NCBI RefSeq assembly: GCF_003946395.1 | Contig: NZ_RHNZ01000004.1 | Coordinates: 62,001-126,000, forward strand | Length of the DNA stretch: 64,000 nt | Source of the DNA: Levilactobacillus fuyuanensis | Lineage (GTDB): Bacteria > Bacillota > Bacilli > Lactobacillales > Lactobacillaceae | Direction of reading: 5' to 3' | In this document: in pieces, positions 19,095 through 53,511 of the stretch | Position numbering within the stretch: the first letter of the stretch is position 1 | Layout of the letters: each line of letters starts with the position of its first letter | Notes under the pieces: model-generated | Database searches by the model: none | Told to the model about the DNA's origin: nothing | The model's input: only the letters and a program-made list of their open reading frames with translations | Translations under genes and position numbers: made by a program

Positions 19095-19285
19095 GCGCCT
19101 TACCGGGCCGATGAAAATGGGCCGTGCCGCTGAGGGCGGACGCCCGGAGCCGAAGGGCGGTCTCCGGGTTTGCTTTGAACCTCTGAAAGACGAGTTTCAA
19201 AGACACCAATTCTCTAAGCGGCATAGACCGCCACTAAGAGAACTCCCACAGCTGAGCCCATTTTCACCGGCCCTCACGGCTCACA
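19095..19285 (-). repeat. Structured intergenic repeat, subfamily 1, copy A
   Basis: About 191 nt. Read on the minus strand from TGTGAGCCGTGAGGG to CCGGTAAGGCGC. The outer stem pairs GCCGGTGAAAATGGGC with GCCCATTTTCATCGGC. Inside are three hairpins: one at 19210-19242 with CTTAG on both sides, one with CTTTGAAAC / GTTCAAAG, and one with CCCGGAG / CTCCGGG. It lies directly upstream of the promoter region of the ABC operon, in the same direction. A 70-codon frame on the plus strand has no ribosome site and is rejected. Confidence 0.85.
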
Positions 19286-19435
19286 TGGATGTAAGCGACT
19301 AATTGGTTTGCTGACTTGGAATGGACTTGGTTAGAATATTTTCGGAATGATTTTAATGGAATATATAGGGGGGTGATTAGCCGATTTATGGCAGTCAGGA
19401 TAGATGTGACGCTTATAAAAGTAGAAAATCGTTTG

Positions 19436-19632
19436 CTTAGCCGAAGGAGGCCAGGGATGTAGCCAGCCGTGTCGACGCTGTTAGGCCGGGCGATTGGTTC
19501 TTCCCGGTCTTACAACGTGGGACGTGTTTGGAAACTCGCAGGATTTTTGCGAGGTTTCAAACCGAACCGGAAGCCAGAACTTTGGCTGCAGGTGGTCCCC
19601 ACAGCAGGCGGAATCCCTGGCAACCGTAGGCG
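19436..19632 (+). repeat. Structured intergenic repeat, subfamily 2, copy E1
   Basis: About 197 nt, read on the plus strand from CTTAGCCG to CCGTAGGCG. The outer stem pairs CCAGGGAT with ATCCCTGG. Three inner hairpins follow the same order as in subfamily 1: GTTAGGCCGGG / CCCGGTCTTAC, then GTTTGGAAACTCGC / GCGAGGTTTCAAAC, then AAGCC / GGCT. It is about 80% identical by eye to the copy at 60179-60370. It lies between the ABC operon promoter region and the 3' end of the permease gene, outside any gene. Confidence 0.85.
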
Positions 19633-19687
19633 GAAAGGTTGACATTATCTAGTTTACAACCAAATCCTGATCATCAAAAATTGGGAA

Positions 19688-19735
19688 CAAAAATAGCCGG
19701 CAATCAGGGCAAAGGGCCCCGGTTACTGGCTACAG
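19688..19735 (-). terminator. Terminator of the purine permease gene
   Basis: On the minus strand TAGCC...GGCTA forms the base of an imperfect stem with a GC-rich top (GGGGCCC), followed by TTTTTGTT. It starts about 20 bases after the permease stop. Confidence 0.75.
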
Positions 19736-19755
19736 AGACAGACAACGTGGAGCTG

Positions 19756-21132
19756 TTAGTTATGATCTTGCGGCTGGACAGTCGTGTTGACCTGTGCCTG
19801 GGCTGGTGCTACCGCCCGGTGTGGCCGCATGTTGAACACAATATTTAAGATGACCGCGGAGAAACTGCCAATGACGACCCCGTTGTTCATGATGATCTGA
19901 AGCGATTGGGGCATGGCCTGGAAAATCTGGGGATAGACGGTGACGCCTAAGCCCAAGCCAATGGAGATGGCGGAGACCAACAAGTTGTTGTTATCCTTGA
20001 AGTCAACCTGTTGCAGCATCCGAATGCCTTGTACCCCAACCATCCCGAACATGACGATCATTGCGCCACCGAGGACGGCATCGGGGATGACCGTGGCGAG
20101 GGCGCCAATCTTAGGTAGTAAGCCTAGCAGCATGAGAAACAATGCCGAGAAGTAAAGCGGCTTACGGGTCTTGACACCAGATAATTGCACGACCCCCACG
20201 TTTTCAGAAAAAGTGGAGTAGGGGAAGGTGTTGAAGAGGCCACCGAGAATCACGGCGATACCTTCAGCGCGGTAGCCGCGTTTCAAGTCCTTTTCGCCAA
20301 TCTTACGGCCGGTGATCTCACCGAGGGCGAAGAAGACCCCGGTCGATTCGACCATCGTGGTCAGCGACACCAGAATCATCGTCAGAATGGAAGACCATTC
20401 GAACTTGGGTGTGCCGAAGTAGAAGAATTGTGGTAGATGGAACCAACTGGCTTGACCCACGGCCTTCAGGGAAACCATACCCATGGCGGCCGCGATGAAG
20501 GTTCCAATCAGGATACCAGCCAGAATAGCCAGTGACTTGAGAAATCCCTTGGCAAAGGCGTTGAGTCCTAAAATGATGCCCATCGTCAGAAAGCCGACCA
20601 GTAACATCTTGGGATCACCGAAGTTCTTCGCCGTGGCGTCCCCACCACCGAGATCTTGAAAGCCCACGGGAATCAGTGTAAAGCCGATAATCGTGATGAG
20701 TGAGCCGGTCACAACGGGTGGAAAGAAGTTCTTAATCTTCGAGAACCACCCGGCGCTGAGAAAGATGAAGATACCGGCACTAATAATGGCCCCGTACATC
20801 ACGCCCACGCCGTATTGATTACCGATGGCGCTCAGTGGCGTCACGGCTTGGACCGCACAGCCGAGGACGACGGGCAGGCCGATTCCAGTCAGCGGTGTTC
20901 GTTTGAGCTGTAAGAGGGTTGCAACCCCACACATGAAGATATCCGCACTGATTAAGTAGGCCATTTGCATGGCGTTAAAATGAAGCGCGCCCCCGATCAG
21001 TAAGGGAACGATGACGTCACCGGAATACATGGCTAATAAATGCTGAAAACCAAGAATGGCCGCGCGCCACATGGGTAAGGCGGACCCTTTTTCTGATGAC
21101 GAGACTGGTGTTGCGGACTTAGTGGACTGCAA
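19756..21132 (-). CDS. Xanthine/uracil permease, NCS2 family
   Basis: Purine or pyrimidine importer of 458 residues with about 12-14 membrane segments. The start is taken as a TTG at 21132, because AAGGAGGAA ends eight bases before it; the longer frame begins inside the riboswitch terminator and cannot be right. Family marks include the IFMCGVATLLQ region and the conserved FGMVGVQGIRML near the end. A guanine-class riboswitch upstream supports xanthine or guanine as substrate over uracil. It is a single-gene unit ending at its own terminator. Confidence 0.92.
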   Translation of the reverse strand: MQSTKSATPVSSSEKGSALPMWRAAILGFQHLLAMYSGDVIVPLLIGGALHFNAMQMAYLISADIFMCGVATLLQLKRTPLTGIGLPVVLGCAVQAVTPLSAIGNQYGVGVMYGAIISAGIFIFLSAGWFSKIKNFFPPVVTGSLITIIGFTLIPVGFQDLGGGDATAKNFGDPKMLLVGFLTMGIILGLNAFAKGFLKSLAILAGILIGTFIAAAMGMVSLKAVGQASWFHLPQFFYFGTPKFEWSSILTMILVSLTTMVESTGVFFALGEITGRKIGEKDLKRGYRAEGIAVILGGLFNTFPYSTFSENVGVVQLSGVKTRKPLYFSALFLMLLGLLPKIGALATVIPDAVLGGAMIVMFGMVGVQGIRMLQQVDFKDNNNLLVSAISIGLGLGVTVYPQIFQAMPQSLQIIMNNGVVIGSFSAVILNIVFNMRPHRAVAPAQAQVNTTVQPQDHN

Positions 21133-21186
21133 GAAAAGTTCCTCCTTCTCGTGATGTCCATACGCCGCCAAGGTTGGTGAAAACAA

Positions 21187-21265
21187 AAAGCTCCCTTTGC
21201 AAAAAGGGGGCTTACTGAAAACTCTACCGACGAACTCTTTTCATCGGCAAAAAGAGTTTCGTCCT
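21187..21265 (-). promoter_or_regulatory. Expression platform of the purine riboswitch, with terminator
   Basis: Between aptamer and permease two hairpins are seen on the minus strand. The distal one (21187-21216) has AAGC-CCCTTT / AAAGGG-GCTT arms followed by TTTTTGTTTT, a terminator. The proximal one (21221-21265) pairs GACGAAACTCTTTT with AAAAGAGTTCGTC. Alternative pairing between the aptamer 3' side and these arms would let purine binding end transcription, as in known guanine switches. Confidence 0.8.
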
Positions 21266-21271
21266 CAATTT

Positions 21272-21337
21272 GCTTATAGTCCAGAGTTTACGGCTCTGGG
21301 TAGAAACTCGCCAACCTTATCTTGGCATTATATAGGC
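21272..21337 (-). ncRNA. Purine riboswitch aptamer, guanine class
   Basis: On the minus strand the conserved core is complete: TATAATGCC, GATAAGG, GTTTCTACC, CCGTAAA and GACTAT, in this order with two loop-forming stems (GCCAA/TTGGC and CCAGAG/CTCTGG). The C in the last element marks the guanine/hypoxanthine/xanthine class, as adenine switches have T there. It controls the NCS2 permease. Confidence 0.95.
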
Positions 21338-21414
21338 AATCACTTTATTTTTTTAATGGAATGTTGATAACTTTACCACGTGAAAATGAAAAAAACAACA
21401 CCCGGTAGACTTTT

Positions 21415-21564
21415 CTAATGCCGATGCCATAGTTTCTTGAAAAGCCCGCCAAACCACTCTAACAGCGGACCCCAGTCGGCCATGCCACCGGAATTACTAT
21501 ATTTCTTGGGATGGACGACCACACCAGGGCGGTAGGGTTTAGCGCTTTCATCTTTTTTTGGCAT
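21415..21564 (-). CDS. Small basic protein of 49 residues, unknown function
   Basis: The frame starts MPKKDESAKPYRPGVVVHPK and ends LLEWFGGLFKKLWHRH: a lysine- and proline-rich N-terminus, a Gly/Ser turn, and an amphipathic aromatic C-terminal helix that could touch membranes. AGGAGAGG lies about 12 bases before the ATG. It is divergent from the asparaginase gene. Codon use looks coding. No family is recognised. Confidence 0.65.
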   Translation of the reverse strand: MPKKDESAKPYRPGVVVHPKKYSNSGGMADWGPLLEWFGGLFKKLWHRH

Positions 21565-21658
21565 ATTTCCACACATCCTCTCCTAATTCTAACTAAATTC
21601 TACAGCAAATAAGGTACAATGTGGGAAAGAAAATTTTTTGAGAAAGAAGTTGACAGTT

Positions 21659-22633
21659 GTGAAGAAAATTTTAGCCATCCATACGGGCGGGACGATTTCG
21701 ATGTCCCAGAATGAAAAGGGTGAGGTTGTTCCCAACGCTCAGAATCCAATTGCCCAGCAAGAAACCATTATGGAAGGACGCGTTGAGCTGATTACCGACG
21801 AACTCTTCAACCTGCCGTCCCCCCATGTGACCCCGGTTGAAATGTTGAAGATCAAGGAGCGCATCAATCAGGGCGAAAAGGAGGGTATCGACGGCGTGGT
21901 TATCACCCACGGGACCGACACCCTTGAAGAAACAGCCTATTTCCTCGACCTGACCCTGCCCAGCACCATTCCCGTAGTCGTGACAGGGGCTATGCGCTCC
22001 TCTAACGAAGTTGGGTCCGATGGCTTGTATAACTTTCAGACAGCTATTGAAGTAGCCGCAGACGACGCCTCACGTGGCAATGGGGTCATGGTCGTGATGA
22101 ACGATGAGATTCACACGGCACGATACGTGACTAAGACACATACCACGAACGTTGCCACGTTCCGCACGCCCACGTTTGGTCCTATCGGTCTGGTTGCTAA
22201 GGGGCAGCCAATCTACTTCCAGCAGCTGATTCGCGAAGATACCTGCGACATCGACCACGTGGTGGACCACGTCTACTTACTAAAGGCTTACGCGGGGATG
22301 GACGCCAGCTTGTTTGACGCCCTGAACAGTGACCAGACGGCCGGAATCGTTATCGAAGGTCTAGGGGCTGGGAATTTACCGCCAGTTACCTTACCAGCCA
22401 TTCAACGGCTCTTAGACCGGCATATCCCGTTAGTCTTGGTCTCACGGTGTTATAATGGCGTTGCCGAGGACATTTACGACTATCAGGGTGGCGGGATCGA
22501 GCTCCGTAAGATGGGCTTGATGCTCTGCCAAGGTTTGAACGGGCAAAAGGCCCGGATCAAGCTGTTAGTTGGCCTCAGCGCGGGCCTACAGGGTGACCGT
22601 CTCGCGGAGTATCTGAGTACTGCTGTATCTTAA
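21659..22633 (+). CDS. L-asparaginase, type I (cytoplasmic)
   Basis: Hydrolyses L-asparagine to aspartate and ammonia; 324 residues without a signal peptide. The first catalytic threonine is in IHTGGTIS (residues 7-14) and the second in THGTDTLEET, the two signatures of the family. The GTG at 21659 is preferred to an upstream TTG because the protein then begins MKKILAIHTGGT, with AAAGAAG at proper distance. A -10 box TACAAT is at 21615-21620. It is followed by 125 bases before the next operon. Confidence 0.92.
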   Translation: MKKILAIHTGGTISMSQNEKGEVVPNAQNPIAQQETIMEGRVELITDELFNLPSPHVTPVEMLKIKERINQGEKEGIDGVVITHGTDTLEETAYFLDLTLPSTIPVVVTGAMRSSNEVGSDGLYNFQTAIEVAADDASRGNGVMVVMNDEIHTARYVTKTHTTNVATFRTPTFGPIGLVAKGQPIYFQQLIREDTCDIDHVVDHVYLLKAYAGMDASLFDALNSDQTAGIVIEGLGAGNLPPVTLPAIQRLLDRHIPLVLVSRCYNGVAEDIYDYQGGGIELRKMGLMLCQGLNGQKARIKLLVGLSAGLQGDRLAEYLSTAVS

Positions 22634-22758
22634 ACGAAATTTAGCGGCGGCTCACGAGCTATTTTCAGTCAGATATGATAAGATTTTCAGAACAGTAGAA
22701 ATAAGCCTGGCCTGTGTTTCAACAGCCAGGTTAAAGAACCATAAAAAAGGGGGTCGTC

Positions 22759-23925
22759 ATGTTGAATTCGATTATGAATGATTTAAACCGGGCGTTGGCT
22801 CAGCATATATTGGTTAACGTGTATCAAACCAACCAAGAAGTCGTGTACACCGGCTACGTGACGACGGTCAGCGATACCGGTATTATTCTCGCCACGTTTG
22901 ATGATTTCGGATTGCCGGATGGCGCCGTGTTCCTTGCGGTCGATGTCATTGATGAAGTTGAGTTTTCAAGCGATGATTTGGACAACATGGCTTTTCGGAT
23001 TCAGACGGCTCAAGAGGAGCAGTTTATCCAAGCCGGTGGCCTGACCATGAACTTTGACGGTCAGCGCGACTTGCGCCGGCAGGTCTTGAGTCATGCGTGG
23101 GTCGACCATCTCGTTGTGATGATGGTCGTCAAGGGTGACGAGCACTTCTATGAAGGCCTGGTCACCAGCGTGGTGGCGGATCAAGTGACCATCCAACTTT
23201 TGAATAAATTTGATTATACGGATCAACCGGTCTTTACGTTGAATCCATCTGAACTTGAAGTCATTGAATTTCAAGGCAAAGAGTTAACGTTGCAAGGGAT
23301 TGCGGCGCCACACCTGCGGAAGTTATCGCACGTGGCACCGAATGAGGTGACCGATGCTAAGGCTATTCCGGAAACGCTACGGAAGTTGGTCGGGCAGGAG
23401 TCATTGGTTGCCCTGGTGCCAGCACACGACAAGGAGCTCTTCTTTGTCGGCCGGATCAACGCAGTCACGGAAAATGCTGTGATTATGAACCTGATCGATA
23501 TGACCGGGCAATTCGGTGGGTATACCGTGATGCGACTGACCGAGTTACATGCGGTCGTCATCGAATCCGATTACTTGCAGACGATGCGGTTGTTCTCGCT
23601 CTTAAATAAAGCGCGTCAGCATCAGATCCAACCGGTCTTAAACGACGAGCGGTTGTTCGATCCGACCGTTGACCAGTTCAGCGCACGGTTGACCCAAGCG
23701 GCAGCCTTTCGCACCATTATTCGGTTGAAGATGCACGACACCACTGGCTTGTTGGGATATCCCAGCCAGGTCGGCGGCGAACGGTTTATCTTCCATGAAG
23801 TCGAGGATAATCAACTGGATCAGGTCGGCAAGGTCTATCGTATCAGTGATGTTGATGAAATCGCCTTTGGGTATTTGGACGCCTACCTGGTAGAGCGTCA
23901 GTTGCGCGTGGAAGGCGACCTGTAA
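22759..23925 (+). CDS. Protein with four repeated beta-rich modules, unknown function
   Basis: A 388-residue cytoplasmic protein that I do not recognise. It can be divided into four modules of about 65 residues (near residues 15-80, 115-175, 220-290 and 320-385). Each has an alternating hydrophobic pattern, a Gly turn (YTGYVTTVSDTGIIL, YEGLVTSVVADQVTI, FVGRINAVTENAVIM, LLGYPSQVGGERFIF) and ends with a D-hydrophobic-E-V/I-x-F strand. This resembles tandem Sm-like or SH3-like barrels, which would suit RNA or protein binding, but that is inference. AAGGGGG precedes the ATG. It is the first gene of a four-gene operon with a zinc ribbon and a macrodomain. Confidence 0.75.
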   Translation: MLNSIMNDLNRALAQHILVNVYQTNQEVVYTGYVTTVSDTGIILATFDDFGLPDGAVFLAVDVIDEVEFSSDDLDNMAFRIQTAQEEQFIQAGGLTMNFDGQRDLRRQVLSHAWVDHLVVMMVVKGDEHFYEGLVTSVVADQVTIQLLNKFDYTDQPVFTLNPSELEVIEFQGKELTLQGIAAPHLRKLSHVAPNEVTDAKAIPETLRKLVGQESLVALVPAHDKELFFVGRINAVTENAVIMNLIDMTGQFGGYTVMRLTELHAVVIESDYLQTMRLFSLLNKARQHQIQPVLNDERLFDPTVDQFSARLTQAAAFRTIIRLKMHDTTGLLGYPSQVGGERFIFHEVEDNQLDQVGKVYRISDVDEIAFGYLDAYLVERQLRVEGDL

Positions 23926-23937
23926 GGAGTTGTGACC

Positions 23938-24267
23938 ATGAAAGCCAAGAAGATGCCGCGCTGGCTCCGCGATACGTTATCGGTGGTCGGTGCCATGTCG
24001 GTACTGTTGATCGCTTATAATTTGTTCGTTGCCAAACAGCCCGACTGGGGAATCGTGCCGGTGCAGATTGCGTTGGCCCTGATTGCAGTCGGGGCGTGGA
24101 GTTTCTTGAGCTATCGTAGTCGTGCCAAACGTCAACTGGCCGCGAAGCAGGCGGCCGAAGCGGCGCAACGGCGCGCAGAGGAACAACAGCAGGCGGCTGC
24201 CCGTGAGGCTGATCATGCGGTGGTTCGCCGCCAGAAAAATCAGCAGCATCGACAGCAACCAAAGTAG
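23938..24267 (+). CDS. Membrane protein with Ala/Gln/Arg-rich coiled-coil tail
   Basis: A 109-residue protein. AAGGAG at 23924-23929 supports the ATG at 23938. Two hydrophobic segments (VVGAMSVLLIAYNLFV and VPVQIALALIAVGAWSFL) are followed by about 45 residues of Ala/Gln/Arg/Glu (AAKQAAEAAQRRAEEQQQAA), likely a cytoplasmic coiled coil. It starts 12 bases after the modular protein and ends 11 bases before the zinc-ribbon gene. Function unknown. Confidence 0.75.
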   Translation: MKAKKMPRWLRDTLSVVGAMSVLLIAYNLFVAKQPDWGIVPVQIALALIAVGAWSFLSYRSRAKRQLAAKQAAEAAQRRAEEQQQAAAREADHAVVRRQKNQQHRQQPK

Positions 24268-24278
24268 GAGGCGGAATC

Positions 24279-24533
24279 ATGGCTGAAGACTTGAAATTTT
24301 GTCCCCACTGTGGTGCCGCGGTGACGGCTGCGGACGATGAATGTCCGCACTGTCACACGGATCTGCGGCCGTTTCGGCCGACACCTAAGGCCACAGCGAA
24401 CAGTCAAAAGTTGAATCTATCGGCGCTATATGCTAATCCCTATCGAGAAGGTATGAAGCGGCTGAAAGCACGTGATCAAAGCAGTCAGGCACCCGCCAAG
24501 AAGCGGTGGCACTGGCCGTGGTCAAAGGAGTAA
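24279..24533 (+). CDS. Small zinc-ribbon protein
   Basis: An 84-residue soluble protein. Residues 8-27 form a zinc ribbon with two CxxC knuckles (CPHCGA and CPHCHT) spaced by about 13 residues. The rest is basic and low in complexity, ending [17 protein letters not shown] precedes the ATG. Such proteins often dock to partners in the same operon. It is separated by only four bases from the macrodomain gene. Confidence 0.8.
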
Positions 24534-24537
24534 TCAG

Positions 24538-25050
24538 ATGGCAGAGTTTACGGTAATTCATGGCGATATTACGGAGAGTCACGTGGACGCCATCGTTAAT
24601 GCGGCAAATACCACGCTGCTAGGCGGTGGTGGCGTTGATGGGGCAATCCATCGTGCGGCTGGACCAGAGCTCTTCCGGGCGTGTGTGCCCTTTAACGGTT
24701 GCCCGACCGGTGAGGCACGAATCACTCCGGGATTTAAGCTCCCGGCAACGTGGGTGATTCATACGCCGGGGCCGGTCTGGCACGGCGGTGATCAGCACGA
24801 AGCGGAGCTGTTGGCGGCGTGTTATCGCAACAGTCTCGCTCTGGCTGGGCAACACGATTGTCAGACGGTGGATTTTCCGTCAATCAGTACGGGCGTTTAC
24901 GGCTATCCGTTGGAAGAAGCGGCGGCCGTAGCGACCCAGACGATTGCAACGGTACTTGCCCACACGACGAGTATTCAAACGGTGCGGCTGGTGGCATTTG
25001 ATGATAATACGGCCGCAGCCTATCGCACGGCTTGGGAACAAATTCAATAA
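24538..25050 (+). CDS. Macrodomain protein, predicted ADP-ribose hydrolase
   Basis: A single macrodomain of 170 residues ([20 protein letters not shown] is the first strand-helix unit). Conserved ADP-ribose contacts are visible: [22 protein letters not shown], and the ISTGVYGYP loop. MacroD-type enzymes with this pattern remove ADP-ribose from proteins or hydrolyse O-acetyl-ADP-ribose. AAAGGAG at 24525-24531 fixes the ATG at 24538, giving the usual length. It is the last gene of the operon starting at 22759; no ADP-ribosyltransferase or sirtuin is in the window. Confidence 0.92.
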
Positions 25051-25061
25051 GTTGATAAAAA

Positions 25062-25095
25062 GTGCTCCAAACCAACCAAAGTTGATTTGGAGCAC
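25062..25095 (+). terminator. Terminator of the macrodomain operon
   Basis: GTGCTCCAAA pairs with TTTGGAGCAC, with an inner AAC/GTT pairing, followed by TTATTGTG, 12 bases after the stop. Confidence 0.85.
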
Positions 25096-25146
25096 TTATT
25101 GTGATTATCTGAAAACAGTTTTTGTAAACCGGGCTGATTAAGTCAG

Positions 25147-25341
25147 CTAATTTGGCTTCGTGGCGATTAAACTTTTCAGAGAACTTTGCTCGTCACTCGT
25201 CGGTATGAGTTCCCCCGACTTGATTGCGTGATACTTTTCGACTGAAATTCGAGAGCCAAAGGCCATTTCGCCATCAGTTTTATCGTATTTCTTTTGGTAG
25301 GCGATGATTGCTTCAGCAAGATCATTTAATTCTTGACTCAT
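25147..25341 (-). CDS. Small helical protein of 64 residues
   Basis: A soluble, mostly helical protein; GGAGGG lies seven bases before the ATG at 25341. The segment EMAFGSRISVEKYHAIKSGE looks like the core of a helix-turn-helix, and the whole resembles small Xre-like or lactobacillar proteins of unknown role. It is monocistronic. I am fairly sure it is coding but not of a DNA-binding function. Confidence 0.65.
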   Translation of the reverse strand: MSQELNDLAEAIIAYQKKYDKTDGEMAFGSRISVEKYHAIKSGELIPTSDEQSSLKSLIATKPN

Positions 25342-25605
25342 TAATATCCCTCCAAATGATAATCCAAATTACTGCTTACGTTTATTATACTAAAGTTTTG
25401 CAAAAGCGGTGAAATAACCCTCGATATCTGCAAGTTTTTTTGTATTCTACTTGATGAATAGGCAAAAATTGCGTAAACTTATATCCAATATAACAATTAT
25501 CGTTGATTAGTGCGGGAATTGTTAACGTAATTTGGTCAACCTGTCATGGTTCTGTGATGTTGCTGGCTTAAGCTAAGCGGTAAGAAAGACCGATGAGGTG
25601 ACAGG

Positions 25606-25776
25606 ATGAATCTGAAACATGTAATTTCGAGTTTGACCACGGCAGTTGTGTTGTTGGCCATTGTTAGTGTCTTCTCCTGGTTTACCATGGGGAAGCGCAC
25701 CGTGACCCACGTCAGTTCACGGCCCGCAACGGTCAATATGACGCAGACCCACGTTTCACAGATCCACGTTAAATAA
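25606..25776 (+). CDS. Small single-span membrane or secreted peptide, 56 residues
   Basis: Begins MNLKHVISSLTTAVVLLAIV: a basic start and a hydrophobic span of about 20 residues, then a polar Thr/Val/His-rich tail with a repeated THV pattern (VTHVSS, TQTHVS, QIHVK). GAGGTG lies six bases before the ATG. Without a clear cleavage site it is more likely anchored with the tail outside. It is followed by a row of hairpins and a terminator. Confidence 0.6.
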   Translation: MNLKHVISSLTTAVVLLAIVSVFSWFTMGKRTVTHVSSRPATVNMTQTHVSQIHVK

Positions 25777-25920: not shown

Positions 25921-25949
25921 TGGTTTGAATTTCTAAATCGCATGTGCCA

Positions 25950-26137
25950 GCGCCTTACCGGGCGGCGTAAATCAGCCGGGACGCGTGGGCGGACGGCCAG
26001 AGCCAAAGTGCGGTCTCTGACCTTGCTTTGGACCGCTGGAGAACGCGTTTCAAAGACACCAAAGTTCTAAGCGGCAAAACCCGCCACTAAGAACTTTCCC
26101 ACAGCTGGGCTGATTTACGCCGCCCTCACGGCTCACA
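25950..26137 (-). repeat. Structured intergenic repeat, subfamily 1, copy B
   Basis: About 188 nt, read on the minus strand. The outer stem pairs GGGCGGCGTAAATCAGCC with GGCTGATTTACGCCGCCC, so the bases differ from copy A while pairing is kept. Hairpin 1 is at 26063-26095 (AGTTCTTAG...CTTAGAACT), hairpin 2 has CTTTGAAAC with GTCCAAAG, and hairpin 3 pairs TCAGAG with CTCTGG. It lies between the 56-residue peptide gene and the convergent 26336 gene, beyond the terminators of both. Confidence 0.85.
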
Positions 26138-29741: not shown

Positions 29742-29927
29742 TGTGAGCCGCAGGAGTGGTGAAAATGGACTCAGCTGTGGGAAGTCTCTTAGCGGCGAAT
29801 GCCGGTTAGAGACTTGGTGGGATTGAGACGTGTTTTTCGGCTCAATCCCAAGTCTAAAGACCGCTTTATGGCTTTAGACGTCCGCCCTCAGCGTTGTTCC
29901 GGTCCATTTTCACCACTCTGGAGGCGC
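29742..29927 (+). repeat. Structured intergenic repeat, subfamily 1, copy C
   Basis: About 186 nt, plus strand from TGTGAGCCG to GGAGGCGC. The outer stem pairs AGTGGTGAAAATGGACT with GGTCCATTTTCACCACT. Hairpin 1 (29782-29815) is AAGTCTCTTAG...GTTAGAGACTT, hairpin 2 pairs GGGATTGAG with CTCAATCCC, and hairpin 3 pairs GTCTAAAG with CTTTAGAC; the last two are fully changed against other copies but still pair. It lies between ykoE and ykoD, antisense to the operon. Confidence 0.85.
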
Positions 29928-29945
29928 TGTGAGGCGACGGCGAGG

Positions 29946-30500
29946 TTAGTCCTTCAAGACGTGGGCGCGGACCAGAAGATTGTTGATCAGCTTAGTCAGC
30001 ACGCCGCCGAAGACGAAGACGGAAAGCAACCGCACGCAGAACAGCAATAACAGGAATGGCAGGTGGTAAGCGGCATACCCATTACGAATCAGGTCCCATG
30101 CGAAGGTAACGATGGTCGTGGTCAATGTGCTCATGGCCAGCGTGAACCAGCCGTAGCGCTTGTAGCCAGTAAAAATGAAACCGAGTTCGGAACCGAAACC
30201 TTGGAGCACACCTGAAATCAGCGTGCTGGCGCCCCAGATACCCCCGAGAAACATTTCTACCACGGCACCCAAGAGTTCACCCAGGGTTGCCGCACCGGGA
30301 ATCCGAATCACGAAACCTGCGAGGGGCCCCGCCATGACCCAGATACCTAACAACAGTTCATTTGCCAGAGGTTGTAACCCGAATGGCGCTAAGGCCGCCG
30401 CTAAAATTGTGTAGACCGGACCGATTGCCCAGAAAATAACACCCATAAAAATTGCAATAATCGTTACTAAAATAATATCTCTAATATGCCAACGCTTCAT
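29946..30500 (-). CDS. ykoE: ECF transporter substrate-binding (S) component, YkoE-like
   Basis: Membrane protein of 184 residues with about five or six hydrophobic spans. The opening MKRWHIRDIILVTIIAIFMG is typical of YkoE proteins, which bind thiamin or its hydroxymethylpyrimidine moiety. The ATG at 30500 has AGGAGG at good distance; ATGs further upstream fall inside or beyond the terminator of the riboswitch. It is the first gene of the ykoE-ykoD-ykoC-tenA cluster. Confidence 0.9.
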   Translation of the reverse strand: MKRWHIRDIILVTIIAIFMGVIFWAIGPVYTILAAALAPFGLQPLANELLLGIWVMAGPLAGFVIRIPGAATLGELLGAVVEMFLGGIWGASTLISGVLQGFGSELGFIFTGYKRYGWFTLAMSTLTTTIVTFAWDLIRNGYAAYHLPFLLLLFCVRLLSVFVFGGVLTKLINNLLVRAHVLKD

Positions 30501-30543
30501 AAACATCCGCCTCCTAAAATTTAGACGCTGAGGGGCCACCAAT

Positions 30544-30577
30544 GCTAAAAAAATCCCCACTAAGTCCATTAGTGGGG
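30544..30577 (-). terminator. Riboswitch-controlled terminator in front of ykoE
   Basis: On the minus strand CCCCACTAA pairs with TTAGTGGGG around TGGAC and is followed by ATTTTTTTA. It lies between the TPP aptamer and ykoE, as expected for transcription attenuation when TPP is bound. Confidence 0.9.
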
Positions 30578-30596
30578 TCATTGATAGCTATTGATT

Positions 30597-30669
30597 ACGC
30601 GTTCCCTTCGCTGGTATTAACCAGAGCAGGTTCAATGGGTTTGATCTCAGCCGCGATGGCACCCCAGTC
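30597..30669 (-). ncRNA. TPP riboswitch aptamer (THI box)
   Basis: On the minus strand the conserved parts appear in order: GGGGTGCC, GGCTGAGAT, ACCCATTGAACCTG, CTCTGGTTAATACCAG and CGAAGGGAAC. The CTGAGA and ACCTGA-type loops that bind thiamin pyrophosphate are intact, apart from a C in ACCTGC where the consensus often has A. It controls ykoE-ykoD-ykoC-tenA. Confidence 0.95.
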
Positions 30670-30886
30670 GTATTTGATTAATCTTAGCTTAACGAGTTTA
30701 TCTGAGAATTGCAACCACAGCCGGAAAAAATCGTTTCTATGCTATGAGCTGTTCAGCGCTGAAATTGTTTTTACAACTACGTTACAGTCGCACCTATGTT
30801 CCCCGAATTGCTTTCGGTTGCTGGGGAAGAGTGCTATTCTAATAGTTAGTTGTCTTAATTATTACTGGATGGAAAGGATTCGAGTT

Positions 30887-46812: not shown

Positions 46813-47015
46813 TCCTACTGACAACTCCTCATGAATTTCTACAGTTACTAGCGTACCAATGTAATGTGACAAATATGTAACAAGCCCTTTGCAAACCCGT
46901 TAAATGTCTTAAACAAATCATTACTTTTCGCAATATAGTTGCAATTTAGGGGTAAAACTTGTTAAAATCTAACAGGATTGGTAAGTAAGTTAACACGGGG
47001 AGGAAGTCATACAAG

Positions 47016-47486
47016 ATGGCAGAGTTTACAGATCAGATCCGGCAGACTTTTGATTTTCACCGGTTGGTCTTTCGAATCGGGGAGTTATCAGCGATGACTA
47101 GCGTTTCAGCTCGGCAGTTACGGTACTGGGAGAAGAAGGGATTGATCGCTTCTCGGGAGCGTGAGGACGGGCAACAGGCCCGAGTCTATACGTTTAAAAC
47201 ATTTATCAAAGTTTCCATGATGAAATACTTTTTGGATGCCGGGTACACGCTGGATGGGGCCGCTAAGCAAGCGCAGGCTCGCGAGGAAAACGTGAAGCAT
47301 ATCCACCGGTTCGTTTCTACTGGGATGAAGGGGTTTGCCAGGGTCGACAACGAAATGGCCATTAACTTGGGGGCCTTCGATGACACTCAGACGTTGATGG
47401 CGCTATTGCCCGACGATGGTCCCATTCGTTACAAATTGTTGCCGAACGATGAGGCTCAGCGTTTGACCGATGAGAGTCGCGTTTAA
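47016..47486 (+). CDS. MerR-family transcriptional regulator
   Basis: A 156-residue regulator. Residues about 18-80 form the MerR helix-turn-helix and wing (FRIGELSAMTSVSARQLRYWE, then KKGLIASREREDGQQARVYT). The C-terminal half is a short helix without cysteine pairs, so no metal site is apparent; the layout resembles the GlnR/TnrA-like and other small MerR proteins. It lies divergent from the NlpC/P60 gene across a 200-base gap, which it may control. GGGGAGGAAG precedes the ATG. Confidence 0.92.
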   Translation: MAEFTDQIRQTFDFHRLVFRIGELSAMTSVSARQLRYWEKKGLIASREREDGQQARVYTFKTFIKVSMMKYFLDAGYTLDGAAKQAQAREENVKHIHRFVSTGMKGFARVDNEMAINLGAFDDTQTLMALLPDDGPIRYKLLPNDEAQRLTDESRV

Positions 47487-47500
47487 CTAGAAAAAAATGA

Positions 47501-47540
47501 AGTCCCGTTCGCCTGATTTTTAGTGCGAACGGGACTTTTT
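47501..47540 (+). terminator. Terminator of the MerR gene
   Basis: AGTCCCGTTCGC pairs perfectly with GCGAACGGGACT and is followed by TTTTTGATT. Confidence 0.92.
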
Positions 47541-47687
47541 GATTATCGAAGTGTATGCAGAATATTTGGCCAGTTAAGTAACGCACTTGTCCATAATTTA
47601 ACGGATAAATAGAAAGTTTAAAAGTCAGCTTGATATATATCGGGACGATATACTATAATAGGGAACCGAAAAAGGAGCTGACGGCGC

Positions 47688-48224
47688 GTGTACAAATTAT
47701 TTGTGTTGGGTCAATTGATGGATCAAGATATGTCGGGCTACCAGCTACGGAAGGCTTTAGCCGCCATGGTAGGGCCCGAACAGACCATTAGTTATGGCGT
47801 TCTGTACCCGTTACTGGAACGATTGGCAAAGGCCGGGGAGATTACATTGACCACGATTGATGAGGGTCAGCGTCCCAAAAAGGTGGCGGCAATCACAGCT
47901 GCGGGCCGGCAACACTTTGTGGCGTTAGTCGTGGCACCGGTGGCCGTCAACAAGCAGACCCAGCTACTCTTTCAGATTAAATGTAACTTTTTACATCTAC
48001 TGGCGGAACCGGAACAACGCCTAATTTTGACGGACTTTCAGCAGTTCTGTCATTACCAGCTGACGAACTTGCAAAATTTCCGTGATTACATGACGGATCG
48101 TCCCAGAATGGTGTCGACGGATGTCGCCGATGCTTTGCAGGTCAATCAGTTGCAGCAAGTCCGGGCAGAAGTCCAAGCCGACTGGGTGGCGGCACGCCTA
48201 GCCGGGTTAAGTAAGGGAGAATGA
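47688..48224 (+). CDS. PadR-family transcriptional regulator
   Basis: A 178-residue regulator starting at a GTG with AAGGAGC upstream. The N-terminal 85 residues are the PadR winged helix (LGQLMDQDMSGYQLRKAL, then ISYGVLYPLLERLAKAGEI and the wing RPKKVAAITAAGR). The C-terminal helices are for dimerisation. PadR proteins usually repress an efflux or detoxification gene in their own operon, here the MFS transporter, which it overlaps by one TGA/ATG step. Confidence 0.92.
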   Translation: MYKLFVLGQLMDQDMSGYQLRKALAAMVGPEQTISYGVLYPLLERLAKAGEITLTTIDEGQRPKKVAAITAAGRQHFVALVVAPVAVNKQTQLLFQIKCNFLHLLAEPEQRLILTDFQQFCHYQLTNLQNFRDYMTDRPRMVSTDVADALQVNQLQQVRAEVQADWVAARLAGLSKGE

Positions 48225-48226
48225 AA

Positions 48227-49657
48227 ATGAAAAAATTTGCGGATGATCCCGTGATTCAGAAACATCGGTGGTTGATCTTAGTGGCCGTTTGTCTGTTTAC
48301 CTTCATGGCAACGTTGGACGGCAGTATTGTTAACATCGCCTTGCCAGTCATCAGTAAGGATATTGCCATCCCCATGAATCAAGCGGAGTGGGTGGTGTCA
48401 ATCTACCTGATTACCATCTGTGCGTTGCTGTTGCTCTTCGGTAAGCTCGGCGATACTCGCGGCAAGATTCGGATCTTTAAGATTGGGTCCGTCCTGTTTA
48501 CAGTGGGATCACTACTCTGTGGCTTCAGCGTTGGCTTAGGCTTTCTGTTGGTGGCGCGGGTCATTCAGGCTGTTGGGGCGGCCATGACCATGGCGACCAA
48601 CAGCGGCATCATCACCGAAGTCTTTCCGTTCAATGAACGGGGCCGGGCGCTGGGCATGATTGGGTCCTTCGTGGCCCTCGGCAGTATTGCCGGCCCCGGT
48701 GTGGGTGGCTTGCTACTGGCGCACTTCAACTGGGGCTACATCTTCTGGATCAACGTGCCGATTGGCCTTGTCGCGTTACTGATTGGTCAACGGATTTTGC
48801 CTAAGGATATTATGGTTAGCCAACAGGCCATCGACAAGCCCGGGGCGAGTCTATTCGCTCTGATGATGGTGACGCTGTTTGCTGGCGTCTTTATTGGTCA
48901 GGAAGTCGGCTTCACCAAGCCACTGATTCTGGGATTATTTGTGGTCGCTATCATTGCCACTTTTTTCTTCGTGCGGCTGGAACTGCGAATTGAAAATCCC
49001 ATCTTAGCGCTACATCTGTTTGAAAATAAACGATTCACCATCAGTATTCTCTGTGCCTTTCTGATCTTTGTGGCCAACTTCTTCTTCAACGTCATCGCCC
49101 CATTCTACTTGGAAAATGCTCGGGGCATGGCGGCGAACTATGCCGGCTATGCGTTGATGACCTTTCCTATCGTGCAGGTGGTGGTGGCGCCGATTGCCGG
49201 GAGTATCTCGGATCGGATTGGGCCAGAAATCCTGACGTTTATCGGTCTGGTGTTGATCTCAATCAGTCAGGTGGGGTACATGCTGTCCACGTTAGCGACC
49301 CCGTTGTGGGTGTTTATGTTCTTCATCGGTCTGGTTGGCTTTGGGAACGGGGTCTTCATGGCGCCCAATAATTCCATTGTCATGAGTTCCGTGCCGATGC
49401 GAGACCTCGGTGTCGCCGGTGGGGTTAACGCGCTGGCGCGGGAAATGGGGATGGTCGTTGGGATCTCCATCGCTACGACCGTTCTGTTCTCCGCCATGGG
49501 TCATTACGCGGGGCATAAGGTCACCGCGTACCTACCAGCGCATCCGGAGATCTTCATTAGCGGGATGCACGTGGCCTTTATGGCCTCATTGGCCGTCTGT
49601 TTGGTGGCTAGTGTGATTACGGGCTGGCGACTGTTTAGTCGGCGAGTGCGGGCTTAG
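48227..49657 (+). CDS. MFS multidrug efflux transporter, DHA2 (EmrB/QacA) family
   Basis: A 476-residue exporter with about 14 membrane segments. Motif A-like (LGDTRGKIRIF), the motif C of DHA antiporters (GSIAGPGVGGLLLA) and the opening FMATLDGSIVNIALPVI (DHA2 D1 motif) are clear. The ATG at 48227 is preferred for spacing to AGGGAG, while the one at 48221 overlaps the padR stop. It is likely under PadR control. Substrates are unknown. Confidence 0.93.
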   Translation: MKKFADDPVIQKHRWLILVAVCLFTFMATLDGSIVNIALPVISKDIAIPMNQAEWVVSIYLITICALLLLFGKLGDTRGKIRIFKIGSVLFTVGSLLCGFSVGLGFLLVARVIQAVGAAMTMATNSGIITEVFPFNERGRALGMIGSFVALGSIAGPGVGGLLLAHFNWGYIFWINVPIGLVALLIGQRILPKDIMVSQQAIDKPGASLFALMMVTLFAGVFIGQEVGFTKPLILGLFVVAIIATFFFVRLELRIENPILALHLFENKRFTISILCAFLIFVANFFFNVIAPFYLENARGMAANYAGYALMTFPIVQVVVAPIAGSISDRIGPEILTFIGLVLISISQVGYMLSTLATPLWVFMFFIGLVGFGNGVFMAPNNSIVMSSVPMRDLGVAGGVNALAREMGMVVGISIATTVLFSAMGHYAGHKVTAYLPAHPEIFISGMHVAFMASLAVCLVASVITGWRLFSRRVRA

Positions 49658-49736
49658 ATGGTCTGGAAAAAGGTTATTGATACTTTGAAAAATGCTCATT
49701 GACTTGTCCTTCTAGTGGTCACCAATCGCACAACAA

Positions 49737-49764
49737 AAAAGCCTTCGCAATCGCGAAGGCTTTT
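49737..49764. terminator. Bidirectional terminator between MFS and MMPL genes
   Basis: AAAAGCCTTCGC pairs with GCGAAGGCTTTT around AATC, with A- and T-tracts on the two sides, fitting both converging genes. Confidence 0.9.
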
Positions 49765-49779
49765 CGTGTATGACTATTT

Positions 49780-52578
49780 CTACTTTTCAGTCTTATCTGA
49801 ATCGGAAGCCTTAGGTGTTGCTTTAGCTTTCGTCTTAGAACGTGACCGTGACTTGCGGGGACGCCGTTTCTTCCGTTTGAATTGCATTGGCTTTTGGGCC
49901 GGAATGACAACTGAAAGCTTACCGAAGGAAGCTGCCATCAGTGGCAAGACAATGTTGAAGATGATTGCCGTGAAGACGGTAATCAGTGTCACAGCCGCCA
50001 ATGTTTGTGATTCGGCGGCTAGGAGACCGAGAACTCCAGCAATGATGATGAACAGTGAATGCCGCATCGTTTGACCGACTTCATGAATCCCTGGTAATAA
50101 CCAATCCAACAGGGGACCATCGTTTAATCGGAAGCTCAGCGCAAGTTGCGTAAGCTCGACAACAGCGAGAACTGTCAGTGGGATAAAGGTCAGCAGTGGC
50201 ACTTGCCAGTTGAATTCGTTGTTACCCGTTAACCAGCCCATGAGGACCTGCGTCAATTGGTAACCGGCGAATGCGGAAGCCAGGAAGGTTAAGAACCAGT
50301 AGGTGGCTTGCAGGATTGACCGACTGAACAAGATCAAGAGGAGTAACGTAATGCCAAAGACCAGCAGTAAGACGCGTGGTAAGTCGTGTTGGTATTGCGT
50401 TTGAATCGTACTCGTCACGACCGGTTGACCGCTAAACGTTAACGTCGCGTTCTTGAGAACAGTTCCGCGGAGTTGACTTTGGGTAACCTGCTTCAATTGT
50501 TGCAACGTCTTGGTGGTGTTCTTGGCGTTTGGCGCATCCTTTAACGTAATCGTCAGGTAAGTCGACTGGACCTTAGCGTCCGTGTAGTTTGCGAGTGATT
50601 GTTGGAAATCACCACTGGCAATCTGCATAGGGGAGAGGTAGAGGGATTTAGCCGCTTCAGAGGTTTGTAACCCACTGAGGTAAAGATAAATCTTGTTCAT
50701 CGACTTCTGCATGCTGGCAACTTGTTTCTTGGACGTTTTTAAACTGTCGCTCACGGCCTTGATTGATTCAGCGTAGTTGCTCAGGTTTGAGTGAGCGGCG
50801 CTGGCATCGGTATTGGCGGTGCTGACGGAGTTGGAGAGAGTGGTCAAGTCATTAACCGCAGTGTTCAACGTAGTATTGACTTCGTTGAGTTGGTTAATGT
50901 AACGCGTGATCCGCTTCGACGTGCTCGTGGTCCCAGCAGCCGTTGACCGACTCAGGGCAGCTTGGAGCGATGTTTGTAAGGTGCTACTGTCGCTCATCAA
51001 GGTGTTGGTCTGAGTGGTCAGTTTATCCAACCGTTTGACCTCGGCCTTAAGTGACTTTTGTTTTAAATTAGTACTGTCGGATTGCAGGTCGTTTCTGACC
51101 GTGCCAAGTTGACCGACAACGCCGGTGATGCTTTCGTTGATCGTACTTAATTGATTAGAAATGTAGTACTGCGTGATCGGTTGACCACCAGGTTGGGTAA
51201 CTGACGTGACGGAAGCGACACCAGGTTGGGCGCGGAGCTTCTTAGTCAGGTTATCCAATTGATAGAGTTGGTTTTGATTATCGAGACGTTGGTTAGTTGA
51301 GAGGTACAACGTGACTGGCGTTGCCTTCCCTTGACCGAAGTGCGCGCTTAATACCCGAGCACCCTGCACGGCTTGATTATTTGGAATGTCTTGAGCACTG
51401 TTGTAATTGAGATGTGTCCGGTTCGCAAACGTTATGGGAACGATCAAATACAGAACAACCGCAACGGCGATCCATGGTTGCCAAAGACCGAACTTCGTCA
51501 AGTGAGACCAAAGCTTGTGGTCCTTGAGACGTGGTCGCGTCTTCTTTGGCCAGAAGAGGCTGTTCCCCAGCATCCCTGTAAAGACAGGAACGAGGGTAAC
51601 ACTGGCAATACCAGTAATGGCAAAGCCAATTCCCAGCAGGCCATAGGCACGAATCGTGGAGAAGTCAAAGAGCATTAGACTACCAAAGGCAATCGTCAAG
51701 CTCAACGTACTAATCAGAATCCGATAACCCAAGTCGTTGACCACTTTAGTCGTGGCGGCTTGGTTATCGGCGCCATCATCGGTCAGATTCCGCAGTTCAC
51801 GGAAGAACCAGAAGCTGGTCAGTAACGTGAACAAGCTGATACCTAGTAGCAGGAAGATCGGCGTGTACTCGGAGTACGCGAAGTTCCAGTGGTAAGCCAA
51901 GTTGGTTGCGAGGGATAGCGTCGTGATATAACTAATTAGAATAGCTAAAAATGTAATAATTGGAGCAATAATCGACGCGAATAAAATCCCCATGGCAACC
52001 AACGCAATCAGTAAGGTCATCAGAATGACGACGAGCGTAAATGACGTAATGTGTTCATTGGCGGCATCACTGATGATCTCAGGACTCGTCACATAGGTGT
52101 TTAGGCCAATGGTCGAAATCTGAGTCTTGAGTTGTGACGCCATCTGGCGGACGGTCCCCTGATTATGGCTAACTTCCAACTGAACGATTTCCGTGGATTT
52201 ATCCTTGGAAAGCAGTTGCGGTTTGCTAGTCGGCGTATTCGTCATTGTGGTGATCTTTTGGACCCCATAATAATGCGAACGCTTCTGCAGTTCGGAAACG
52301 GTCTTGTTGACCGAAGCGAGTTGCTTATTGGTAAGGGCGCCGTCGGGGTTGTTAAAGACCGCGTTGACGGTATAGGTTCCGTTTAGGTTCCGCCCCCAAG
52401 TGTTCTTGAGTTGGGTCGCCTTGACGGGTTGACTCGTATTCGCCAATTGTGGTTGACCGTCATATTGAATGATGGTCTTGACATTTGGCAAGGTGACGAT
52501 GGCCGCAAAGACCACGACTAACCAGAATACGAGTGCAAAAATCCGGTTGTGGTGAAGCTTTCTTATCCGTTCTTGCAT
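49780..52578 (-). CDS. MMPL/RND-family membrane exporter
   Basis: A 932-residue membrane protein with two halves, each with one membrane segment, a large outside domain, and a bundle of five or six further segments. The large loop (about residues 410-680) is coiled coil and Ser/Thr/Leu-rich, like that of YdfJ/MmpL proteins. It likely exports lipids or hydrophobic compounds. The C-terminal tail is very basic (KRKKRRPRKSRSRSKTKAKA). The start at 52578 has a GAGGA site rather far upstream. Monocistronic. Confidence 0.9.
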   Translation of the reverse strand: MQERIRKLHHNRIFALVFWLVVVFAAIVTLPNVKTIIQYDGQPQLANTSQPVKATQLKNTWGRNLNGTYTVNAVFNNPDGALTNKQLASVNKTVSELQKRSHYYGVQKITTMTNTPTSKPQLLSKDKSTEIVQLEVSHNQGTVRQMASQLKTQISTIGLNTYVTSPEIISDAANEHITSFTLVVILMTLLIALVAMGILFASIIAPIITFLAILISYITTLSLATNLAYHWNFAYSEYTPIFLLLGISLFTLLTSFWFFRELRNLTDDGADNQAATTKVVNDLGYRILISTLSLTIAFGSLMLFDFSTIRAYGLLGIGFAITGIASVTLVPVFTGMLGNSLFWPKKTRPRLKDHKLWSHLTKFGLWQPWIAVAVVLYLIVPITFANRTHLNYNSAQDIPNNQAVQGARVLSAHFGQGKATPVTLYLSTNQRLDNQNQLYQLDNLTKKLRAQPGVASVTSVTQPGGQPITQYYISNQLSTINESITGVVGQLGTVRNDLQSDSTNLKQKSLKAEVKRLDKLTTQTNTLMSDSSTLQTSLQAALSRSTAAGTTSTSKRITRYINQLNEVNTTLNTAVNDLTTLSNSVSTANTDASAAHSNLSNYAESIKAVSDSLKTSKKQVASMQKSMNKIYLYLSGLQTSEAAKSLYLSPMQIASGDFQQSLANYTDAKVQSTYLTITLKDAPNAKNTTKTLQQLKQVTQSQLRGTVLKNATLTFSGQPVVTSTIQTQYQHDLPRVLLLVFGITLLLLILFSRSILQATYWFLTFLASAFAGYQLTQVLMGWLTGNNEFNWQVPLLTFIPLTVLAVVELTQLALSFRLNDGPLLDWLLPGIHEVGQTMRHSLFIIIAGVLGLLAAESQTLAAVTLITVFTAIIFNIVLPLMAASFGKLSVVIPAQKPMQFKRKKRRPRKSRSRSKTKAKATPKASDSDKTEK

Positions 52579-52782
52579 ATGTAGTCTGAGTCCTCTCTAT
52601 CTAATCAATTTCCCGCCGTGCAAGCAGGGTGCAGTTCATGTATAATTCTACCATATTGGGGTGGATTCGGGCTGTTTTCGGCGTTATTTAACAAAGTTTA
52701 AGAAAGCCTTATGGTTGACTCCCACAACCATTGCGGTAAAGTAGAAGTCCTTATAACTAACTAAAAGAAAGAACGTGAATCC

Positions 52783-53019
52783 ATGACAAAGCACCATCAA
52801 GCCTACCAGAGCCCCTACGCAGCCATGTTGACGCCTGACCGATTCGACTTGGCCCTCAAGCTAGCGGCCCAGTATCACCTCGATGCCAGCCAGATTATGT
52901 TTGCTTATTTAGAGATTACGGCAAATGCTGCCGAACCGGCAAAGAACGTTACCGATCGCCAAAAAGAAATCGATGAGCGGTTCCAAGCCTTCTTAGAAGA
53001 TGCGGCCAAGCCACTTTAA
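52783..53019 (+). CDS. Small soluble helical protein, unknown function
   Basis: A 78-residue protein (MTKHHQAYQSPYAAMLTPDR start), mostly helical with an acidic C-terminus (ERFQAFLEDAAKPL). AAAGAAAG is the only ribosome site before the ATG. No family is recognised. It is monocistronic, divergent from the MMPL gene. Confidence 0.65.
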   Translation: MTKHHQAYQSPYAAMLTPDRFDLALKLAAQYHLDASQIMFAYLEITANAAEPAKNVTDRQKEIDERFQAFLEDAAKPL

Positions 53020-53320
53020 TTGCCGTTTCAGTTGTTTTCACGTAAACTTAATTAACTAGATTAACCTTGTTGGCAACAATAATTGCATATATAAATTCAT
53101 GGTTTGTGTTGTCGTGACTAGTGTAAGTAGAGCGTATTGATGCCACAACTGCATGGTTAGCAATTAGCGTTGCCGAAGAAGGCCAGAGGTGTTGTGACCG
53201 TGCAATTTGTGATCTATATCTAAGATCAGTGCGGCGTAGTAACTGGACATCTTTTAGTAGATATTAATCGGGCCAATGACTAGTAGCTTGGGTTACCTTT
53301 GCTTGTGATGGTTCAAGCTG
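53020..53320. other. Non-coding region upstream of repeat copy D
   Basis: AT-rich, with no reading frame with a ribosome site. I see no terminator for the 52783 gene. The whole gap to the next gene is 560 bases, the largest after the 19 kb and 60 kb gaps, and like those it holds a structured repeat. Confidence 0.4.
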
Positions 53321-53511
53321 TGTAAGCCGTGAGGGTGGTGAAAATTGCCTTAACTGTGGGAATGTTCTTAGCGGCGGGCTATGCCACTTAGAACATTGGT
53401 GGGTTTGAAACTCGGTTCTCAGAGGTTCGAACCCAAGTCTGGAGAACGTACTGTGGCTCCGGACGGTCCGCCCTCAGTGGCCCAGGCGATTTTCACCACC
53501 CGGTAAGGCGC
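53321..53511 (+). repeat. Structured intergenic repeat, subfamily 1, copy D
   Basis: About 191 nt, plus strand from TGTAAGCCGTGAGGG to CCGGTAAGGCGC. The outer stem pairs GGGTGGTGAAAATTGCC with GGCGATTTTCACCACCC. Hairpin 1 is at 53361-53397 (AATGTTCTTAG...CTTAGAACATT), hairpin 2 pairs GGGTTTGAA with TTCGAACCC, hairpin 3 pairs TCTGGAG with CTCCGGA. It is upstream of the choloylglycine hydrolase gene in the same direction, ending 70 bases before its start. Confidence 0.85.

Follow-up and report, generated by a model that had tools for sequence, protein, structure and literature searches.

In our leading reading, which we hold with about even confidence, a BOX-like superfamily of small, non-coding interspersed elements extends through the genus Levilactobacillus; its RNA fold would be kept at resident sites, where the elements would affect the adjacent transcripts, and its copies would spread rarely and be rewritten by gene conversion. 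The starting point is the window, i.e., the whole 64,000-nt stretch of DNA that was analysed, which belongs to a 2.72-Mb Levilactobacillus assembly (G000). The genus follows from the best protein matches, at 98-99%, which are to L. parabrevis ATCC 53295 and a metagenome-assembled genome. A first-pass annotation of the window had described four copies of an intergenic element of about 190 nt; they are present at the coordinates it gave and, each read on its own strand, can be aligned end to end. Scored with R1, a covariance model of family A built from 42 copies, they reach 166.8-199.2 bits, all four being among the 42 training sequences. Two further elements in the window, additions to those four, belong to family C and were scored with R2, the covariance model of that family, built from 29 copies that include both of them. 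The features are as follows, with the parts of copy 4 mapped from the structure of alignment A3.

19095..19285, minus strand: family A copy 1 (R1 196.1 bits; locus L009 in alignment A3)
19286..19434, no strand: 149-nt spacer separating copy 1 from the divergent family C member, 5' end to 5' end
19435..19634, plus strand: family C member, divergent partner of copy 1 (R2 200.3 bits; R1 36.2 bits)
25950..26137, minus strand: family A copy 2, with arm GGCGTAAAT (R1 199.2 bits)
29742..29928, plus strand: copy 3, variant B, ends AGCCGCAGG..GGAGGC (R1 166.8 bits)
53321..53511, plus strand: family A copy 4 (R1 192.0 bits)
53333..53350, plus strand: copy 4, 5' arm of the long stem P1
53361..53397, plus strand: copy 4, hairpin H1
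53400..53435, plus strand: copy 4, hairpin H2
53437..53464, plus strand: copy 4, hairpin H3
53484..53501, plus strand: copy 4, 3' arm of P1
60178..60372, minus strand: second family C member in the window (R2 191.5 bits; R1 51.9 bits)

The shared ends claimed for the four copies need small corrections: copy 3 starts TGTGAGCCGCAGG and terminates in CTGGAGGCGC instead of GGTAAGGCGC, and copy 4 starts TGTAAGCCG. The two variants of the outer arm, GGTGAAAAT and GGCGTAAAT, each with its complementary partner arm, are borne out in the copy alignment, and so are the changes on both arms of hairpins 2 and 3. The proposed plan of an outer stem with three hairpins is also the one found, i.e., stems P1 and P2 and three hairpins, 58 pairs in all.

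The 3' end of copy 1 lies about 80 nt upstream of the start of a minus-strand ABC-transporter ATPase gene (18116-19012; Pfam ABC_tran), that of copy 4 lies 70 nt upstream of the start of a choloylglycine-hydrolase-family gene (53582-54559), and about 18 nt separate that of copy 3 from the stop codon of a convergent permease gene (29946-30581). The family C member at 60178..60372 sits about 10 nt past the stop codon of a plus-strand ORF (59295-60167). The window also holds a purine riboswitch at 21257-21355 (minus strand), upstream of a xanthine/uracil-type permease gene (19756-21186), and a TPP riboswitch at 30585-30676 (minus strand), directly upstream of the same ABC_cobalt-type permease gene whose stop codon faces copy 3. 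At Rfam gathering scores, the whole window yields only purine, TPP, and tRNA matches, none of which overlaps the copies.

Size and range of the superfamily

With copy 4 as query, blastn gives 41 matches in its own genome. R1 gives at least 141 there, 61 of them at 112 bits or more, and R2 gives at least 149, 136 of them at 92 bits or more, each among the best 150 candidates scored and with E-values that are rough owing to a short calibration. The union of the 136 (of 149) family C matches and the 61 (of 141) R1 matches at or above those two scores comprises at least 197 elements, i.e., 37.5 kb, or 1.38% of the assembly. Each model picks up the other family at roughly 30-95 bits, and families A and C are therefore related.

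The superfamily is not restricted to this genome. In six congeners, R1 gives between 25 and at least 150 matches per genome; G007 (taken as L. parabrevis) has at least 130, G006 at least 90, and G011 at least 150, beside the at least 141 of G000 itself. For family C, R2 matched 28 of the 29 genus genomes searched, 23 of them at least 70 times among the best 88 candidates per genome and several with weak scores, and it gave no match in the one remaining genome. Run across the order under stricter filters, with the best 8 candidates per genome, R1 matched 10 of 295 genomes and 5 of 74 genera, Levilactobacillus included, and relatives of the family are thus found in four further genera. Covariance-model searches, a check that the first-pass annotation had proposed, thus return many more copies in the genome itself, in the genus, and in other genera. 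When seven of the other-genus forms were folded, five had two hairpins (a three-way junction) and two had three; the five two-hairpin forms share, by eye, the junction CUCAG...GUUCCAG or a near variant of it. Two elements of the window's own genome, L106:301-465 and L077:301-468, likewise have only two hairpins (three-way junction, by eye), as in the other genera.

Permissive Rfam scans of three family A loci and of ten A, C, and other-genus loci gave chance-level matches only on the elements, such as sR44 at 17.5 bits (gathering 45) on L021 and mir-2574 at 17.8 bits (gathering 90) on L145, in line with the first-pass annotation, which had recognised no named RNA family. A sub-threshold match to rli28 (RF01492) of 38.7 bits (gathering 45) was seen at L145:1157-1318 (minus strand), in another genus of the Lactobacillaceae and about 180 nt from an element; rli28 was rejected as the family, as this match falls on neighbouring sequence of 36% G+C with a different structure and not on the element. 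In the literature searched, mostly titles and abstract openings, no description of the family was seen.

The predicted fold and the strand that forms it

RNAalifold places 58 pairs in family A, 39 of them with at least one double compensatory change, and in family C 43 of 60 pairs carry double changes. Across 42 family A copies, 98.7% of 2432 cells pair versus 86.8% in shuffled alignments, the covariation score is 0.410 versus 0.161, and double-change cells number 304 versus 71.7 (sd 10.4), a value reached by none of 500 shuffles; if the partner is slid by 1-3 columns, pairing falls to 33-50% and double-change cells to 10-57, both controls removing the relatedness among copies only in part. 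The covariation that had been noticed among the four copies thus lies above chance in the larger set. The first-pass annotation had left two interpretations standing, a structured RNA with many copies or a mobile element, and had set three outcomes against them (a known family, no covariation, and no further copies); because further copies are numerous, covariation is strong, and Rfam matches stay at chance level, none of these outcomes was obtained, and the interpretation is supported.

Element length is nearly constant across copies. The ends pair in family C (GCC/GGC); in family A (AGCC..GGC), their pairing is possible by eye and absent from the predicted structure. On these structural models, the superfamily (A/B together with C) is best explained as a long stem, P1-P2, that carries two or three hairpins and is folded on one strand, the other genera having mostly two-hairpin forms.

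Wobble pairs indicate which strand this is. In 95 family A rows (one copy counted twice), stem cells contain 314 GT+TG versus 50 AC+CA, about 6:1, or about 4:1 without two constitutively GU columns, a count that leans somewhat toward GU given that the structure was derived with GU allowed. The excess of GU over AC on one strand therefore implies that one strand, most likely RNA, is selected. With the two GU columns excluded, the 57 copies whose 3' neighbour is a sense gene give a GU:AC ratio of 122:29, and the 23 whose 3' neighbour is antisense give 30:11; among the latter, the bias weakens to 15:8 in the 15 elements that stand no more than 33 nt from that gene. It is therefore the strand reading TGTnAGCCG...GGCG that folds, irrespective of the direction of the adjacent gene, with a weaker case where an antisense gene is nearest, and we infer that this strand is RNA.

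The paired changes might instead be the product of a mutational process, i.e., template-switch correction of quasi-palindromes or co-conversion of hairpins, with no selection on the fold. Orthologous sites do differ by whole hairpins, so that many double changes need not be stepwise compensation, and yet we consider this process a very improbable source of the pattern: conserved mismatches and bulges persist inside the stems (by eye, alignment A3), GU lies far above AC, which is unexpected from template switching, and the original divergence of the modules still had to arise with pairing kept. Both the wobble ratio, which is not strand-symmetric, and the slower change of paired sites in unswapped orthologs speak for selection and against this process.

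Placement and orthologous sites

Neighbouring elements are strongly oriented with respect to each other and to genes. Of the 42 pairs that stand no more than 700 nt apart, 38 are divergent and 4 are tandem, with no convergent pair (chi-square p about 1e-21), and the 5'-5' gaps of divergent pairs run from 93 to 544 nt. The gap to a gene is smaller on the 3' than on the 5' side in 26 of 30 G000 copies (medians 70.5 versus 245 nt; Wilcoxon p 8e-5), with genes called by a simple ORF script and with four of 34 copies dropped (in three, the gap to a small ORF was zero or negative, and L002:1729 is overlapped by one). The 3' neighbour is a gene start in 21 of the 30, most at 32-190 nt, and the stop codon of a convergent gene in nine, six of them at 8-23 nt. 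So the usual position of the element is the margin of an intergenic region, its 3' end pointing to the coding sequence, and a divergent pair marks both margins of one such region. Where a gene start lies downstream, the element would most likely be in the leader of that gene's transcript; where a stop codon faces it, transcription toward that gene would start within the intergenic region. Of twenty neighbouring proteins scanned, those that match Pfam are functionally mixed, including RsgA, RimM, adenosine deaminase, methionine sulfoxide reductase, choloylglycine hydrolase, permeases, and DNA polymerase III alpha. Each copy may affect the expression or stability of the adjacent transcript, whatever the class of the gene, and a common factor probably reads the conserved junction CUCAG/GUUCCAG around P2.

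Three other roles were considered and rejected. Promoter-like sites upstream of the elements are only weakly enriched, a weak signature of an own promoter and a point against the leading reading. A terminator-like hairpin was placed across the 3' end by a simple finder in only 3 of 59 and 0 of 23 copies, which does not fit terminator function. As to a composite transposon made of two opposed elements, among the 37 spacers of divergent pairs only ten pairs match, eight being confirmed and two likely orthologs; the 149-nt spacer at 19286..19434 has as its sole match among the 37 that of its G007 ortholog.

The comparison of G000 with G007 shows how single sites behave. The G007 stretches were fetched around G007's own family A copies, a biased sample in which empty sites are mostly missed; within it, an ortholog occupies the corresponding position for 22 of 44 G000 family A copies, with matching orientation in all 22 cases, and the other 22 have no usable match within the fetched regions. 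Identity inside the element is bimodal across the 22 pairs, i.e., 12 retained, 7 replaced, and 3 intermediate. The 12 retained pairs are identical at 90% or more of positions, and copy 2 has such an orthologous copy (91.5%). In the seven replaced pairs, G007 holds a different family member, 70-78% identical in the model alignment or 67-77% with gaps counted, in surroundings that are 87-94% identical; when replaced sites are aligned, the flanks match up to the element and the body differs, L030 being the clearest case. The orthologous site of copy 3 holds a different family member (70.5% identical in the model alignment, 67% in a separate one). In the three intermediate pairs, P1 and H1 are similar, and H2 and H3 are different. 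Among the G000 and G007 copies compared, no donor was identical over the whole element.

Rates of change were compared for the 12 retained and 7 replaced pairs, the three intermediate ones being excluded. In the retained pairs, paired sites differ at 44 of 1391 positions (3.2%) and unpaired sites at 74 of 854 (8.7%; Fisher p 2.8e-8), and the flanks differ by 25% on the 5' side and 9% on the 3' side. As a comparison of sequences, the slower change at paired sites favours selection on the fold at resident copies. Of 38 single stem substitutions in the same pairs, 21 left the pairing intact; 34 were transitions, for which a fraction of 0.469 is expected without selection. This measure therefore lends no support, and the case for resident selection depends on the rate difference. 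Taken with the strand-specific wobble, the slower change at paired bases supports well the first of the two earlier interpretations, a structured RNA with many copies. With a fold that appears to be kept at individual sites, a 3' end that tends to face genes, and different members per site across species, the family is unlike simple genomic debris.

The same sites can be followed across the genus. At L030, five species carry the element at the same place and in the same orientation with stem letters that are different in each, and four genomes aligned alongside have no element; G009 and G005 carry elements elsewhere in this intergenic region. At the same site, G014 (L188) keeps only the last bases of the element, GCCCGGTAAGGCG, likely a partial deletion. 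The L022 intergenic region, tabulated for 16 of the 24 genomes whose loci were scanned, holds elements in 11 of these 16, 18 in all; seven genomes hold a pair, and each of the seven pairs is divergent. In six genomes the gene-proximal element stands 24-29 nt from the same reference point and scores best as A, best as C, or weakly with both. Thus, at L022 and L030, site and orientation are conserved while the family member differs. Part of this pattern of shared sites could come from independent insertions under the same orientation rule. In our leading reading, copies would spread only rarely; most of the change would come from gene conversion, in which one copy overwrites another at its site and the conserved ends and hairpin bases supply the homology.

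Many copies have, outside the core, a further outer stem of variable sequence: 60-nt flanks of 60 copies give a mean duplex energy of -27.4 versus -19.7 for mismatched flanks. This mutual complementarity would be expected if pre-existing hairpins (terminators or palindromes) were the target, the outer stem being host sequence and the element having been inserted in the loop, and at the L022 site G007 does have a bare hairpin where G000 has a C copy. In the less related G023, however, that intergenic region has a C copy of matching orientation; the difference, at first taken as an insertion of family C in G000, was recast as a loss in G007, and only 24 of the 60 outer stems are individually significant (p<=0.05). 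We regard insertion into pre-existing hairpins as unlikely.

One further observation concerns copy 4. Upstream of the same choloylglycine-hydrolase gene, two relatives have an element (L045:423-598 and L067:7738-7931) with two right ends and an inverted body. Judged from their sequence, these chimeras probably arose when a deletion joined the arms of what had been a divergent pair; a chromosomal rearrangement at copy 4, which the inverted inner part had suggested, was rejected, as collinearity of the left flank extends to window position 53071.

Mobility, meaning, and comparison with known systems

Both the transcription of the elements and their mobility are what we infer from the patterns above. 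A non-autonomous mobile element, the second earlier interpretation, is supported only in part, i.e., copy number is variable and copies are gained, lost, and nested; against it, the A copies compared include no near-identical pair, no duplication of a target site was recognised, and for at least half of the A copies examined a related species has an orthologous copy in the corresponding position. In its strict form, the element would be a parasite (BOX- or MITE-like) whose folded strand, RNA or single-stranded DNA, is recognised by a transposition enzyme acting in trans, such that only well-folded copies spread and the neighbours are incidental. To this parasite account we would assign about a third of our belief, less than to the one we prefer. 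The varying copy number across the genus (six congeners with R1, and one genome of 29 without family C) and the functionally mixed neighbours would suit it. At L026:1420-1770, a further palindrome encloses a B-type element whose P1/P2 stem in turn contains an A element, and this nested A element has an orthologous A copy (L114) in G007. Species also differ in presence at L028/L130 and L002/L128, and G014 keeps only the 3' remnant.

Other observations fit a spreading parasite poorly. The best within-genome match of each A copy is only 62-93% identical (61 G000 and 48 G007 copies), and by eye the flanks of 41 copies show no recurrent target duplication, element-free relatives being too diverged beside the site. 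Three queries found no match among 72,556 plasmid records, one query found none among 50,697 phage records, and two exact patterns found none in viral contigs. Y1 transposase (PF01797) has no match in three of eight genomes, including G011 with its at least 150 R1 matches, and reverse transcriptase (PF00078, RVT_1) has none in six of nine, including G000, G007, and G006; spread dependent on either enzyme was therefore not supported, these being unmatched in some carriers. A parasite would also leave the slower change of paired sites at resident copies to be explained.

The preferred reading, a fold kept at resident sites, has a stronger form, which we put forward tentatively and consider somewhat doubtful, i.e., that hundreds of paralogous junction RNAs stand fixed at gene edges throughout one bacterial genus, face coding sequence, are selected for their fold site by site, and have hairpins or whole bodies swapped among sites, which would be a new chromosomal RNA architecture. 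If true, the genome would hold an exchangeable library of gene-edge RNA devices with one common reading factor. About 1.4% of the genome, at no fewer than 197 sites, is occupied by a structured element outside the Rfam families, of which no description was seen in the titles and abstracts covered. Within one genome the family shows unusually strong covariation; it is also strongly oriented with respect to genes, and differences between species amount to natural swap experiments. With it one can test whether small bacterial repeats act as parasites or as RNA devices of the host, and in what way dispersed repeats exchange content with no visible transposition. It is also relevant to the annotation and assembly of food-fermentation lactobacilli.

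HEARO and other mobile-element RNAs are large structured RNAs with many copies, some with no protein gene. Rfam scans of the window, of the three A loci, and of the ten A, C, and other-genus loci gave no HEARO match; the family here is like HEARO in being a large structured RNA of many copies. REP/BIME palindromes with RAYT (Y1) transposases form strand-specific hairpins in many intergenic copies. Unlike these, the present element is about 190 nt long with three hairpins and is abundant in G011, where the Y1 transposase was unmatched. MITE-type elements are described as typically AT-rich, with terminal inverted and direct repeats, and as mainly IS-derived (PMC10969869). Our family resembles them in being short, dispersed, and able to form stem-loops; unlike them as so described, it is not AT-rich (G+C 0.49-0.68, i.e., 49-68%, in 85 R1 matches), and no target duplication was recognised.

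The closest comparison is with BOX of S. pneumoniae, which together with RUP and SPRITE is described as a short intergenic repeat with extensive secondary structure (PMC3049150, PMC10969869). According to the same papers, about half of the BOX elements are at sites common to all strains compared and present mobility is low, BOX elements insert into one another, and there is no clear association with gene class (PMC3049150, PMC10969869); BOX size varies via boxB modules, and BOX is over-represented between convergent genes (PMC3049150). Like BOX in these accounts, the family here is intergenic, structured, and of many copies, with partly shared sites (compared between species here and between strains for BOX) and one case of nested insertion. 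Unlike BOX as described there, it has a near-constant length, a 3' end that tends to face the nearest gene, and different members per site across species, the likeness being one of description. By analogy, a BOX-type small interspersed repeat is the best reading of the family that we can offer.
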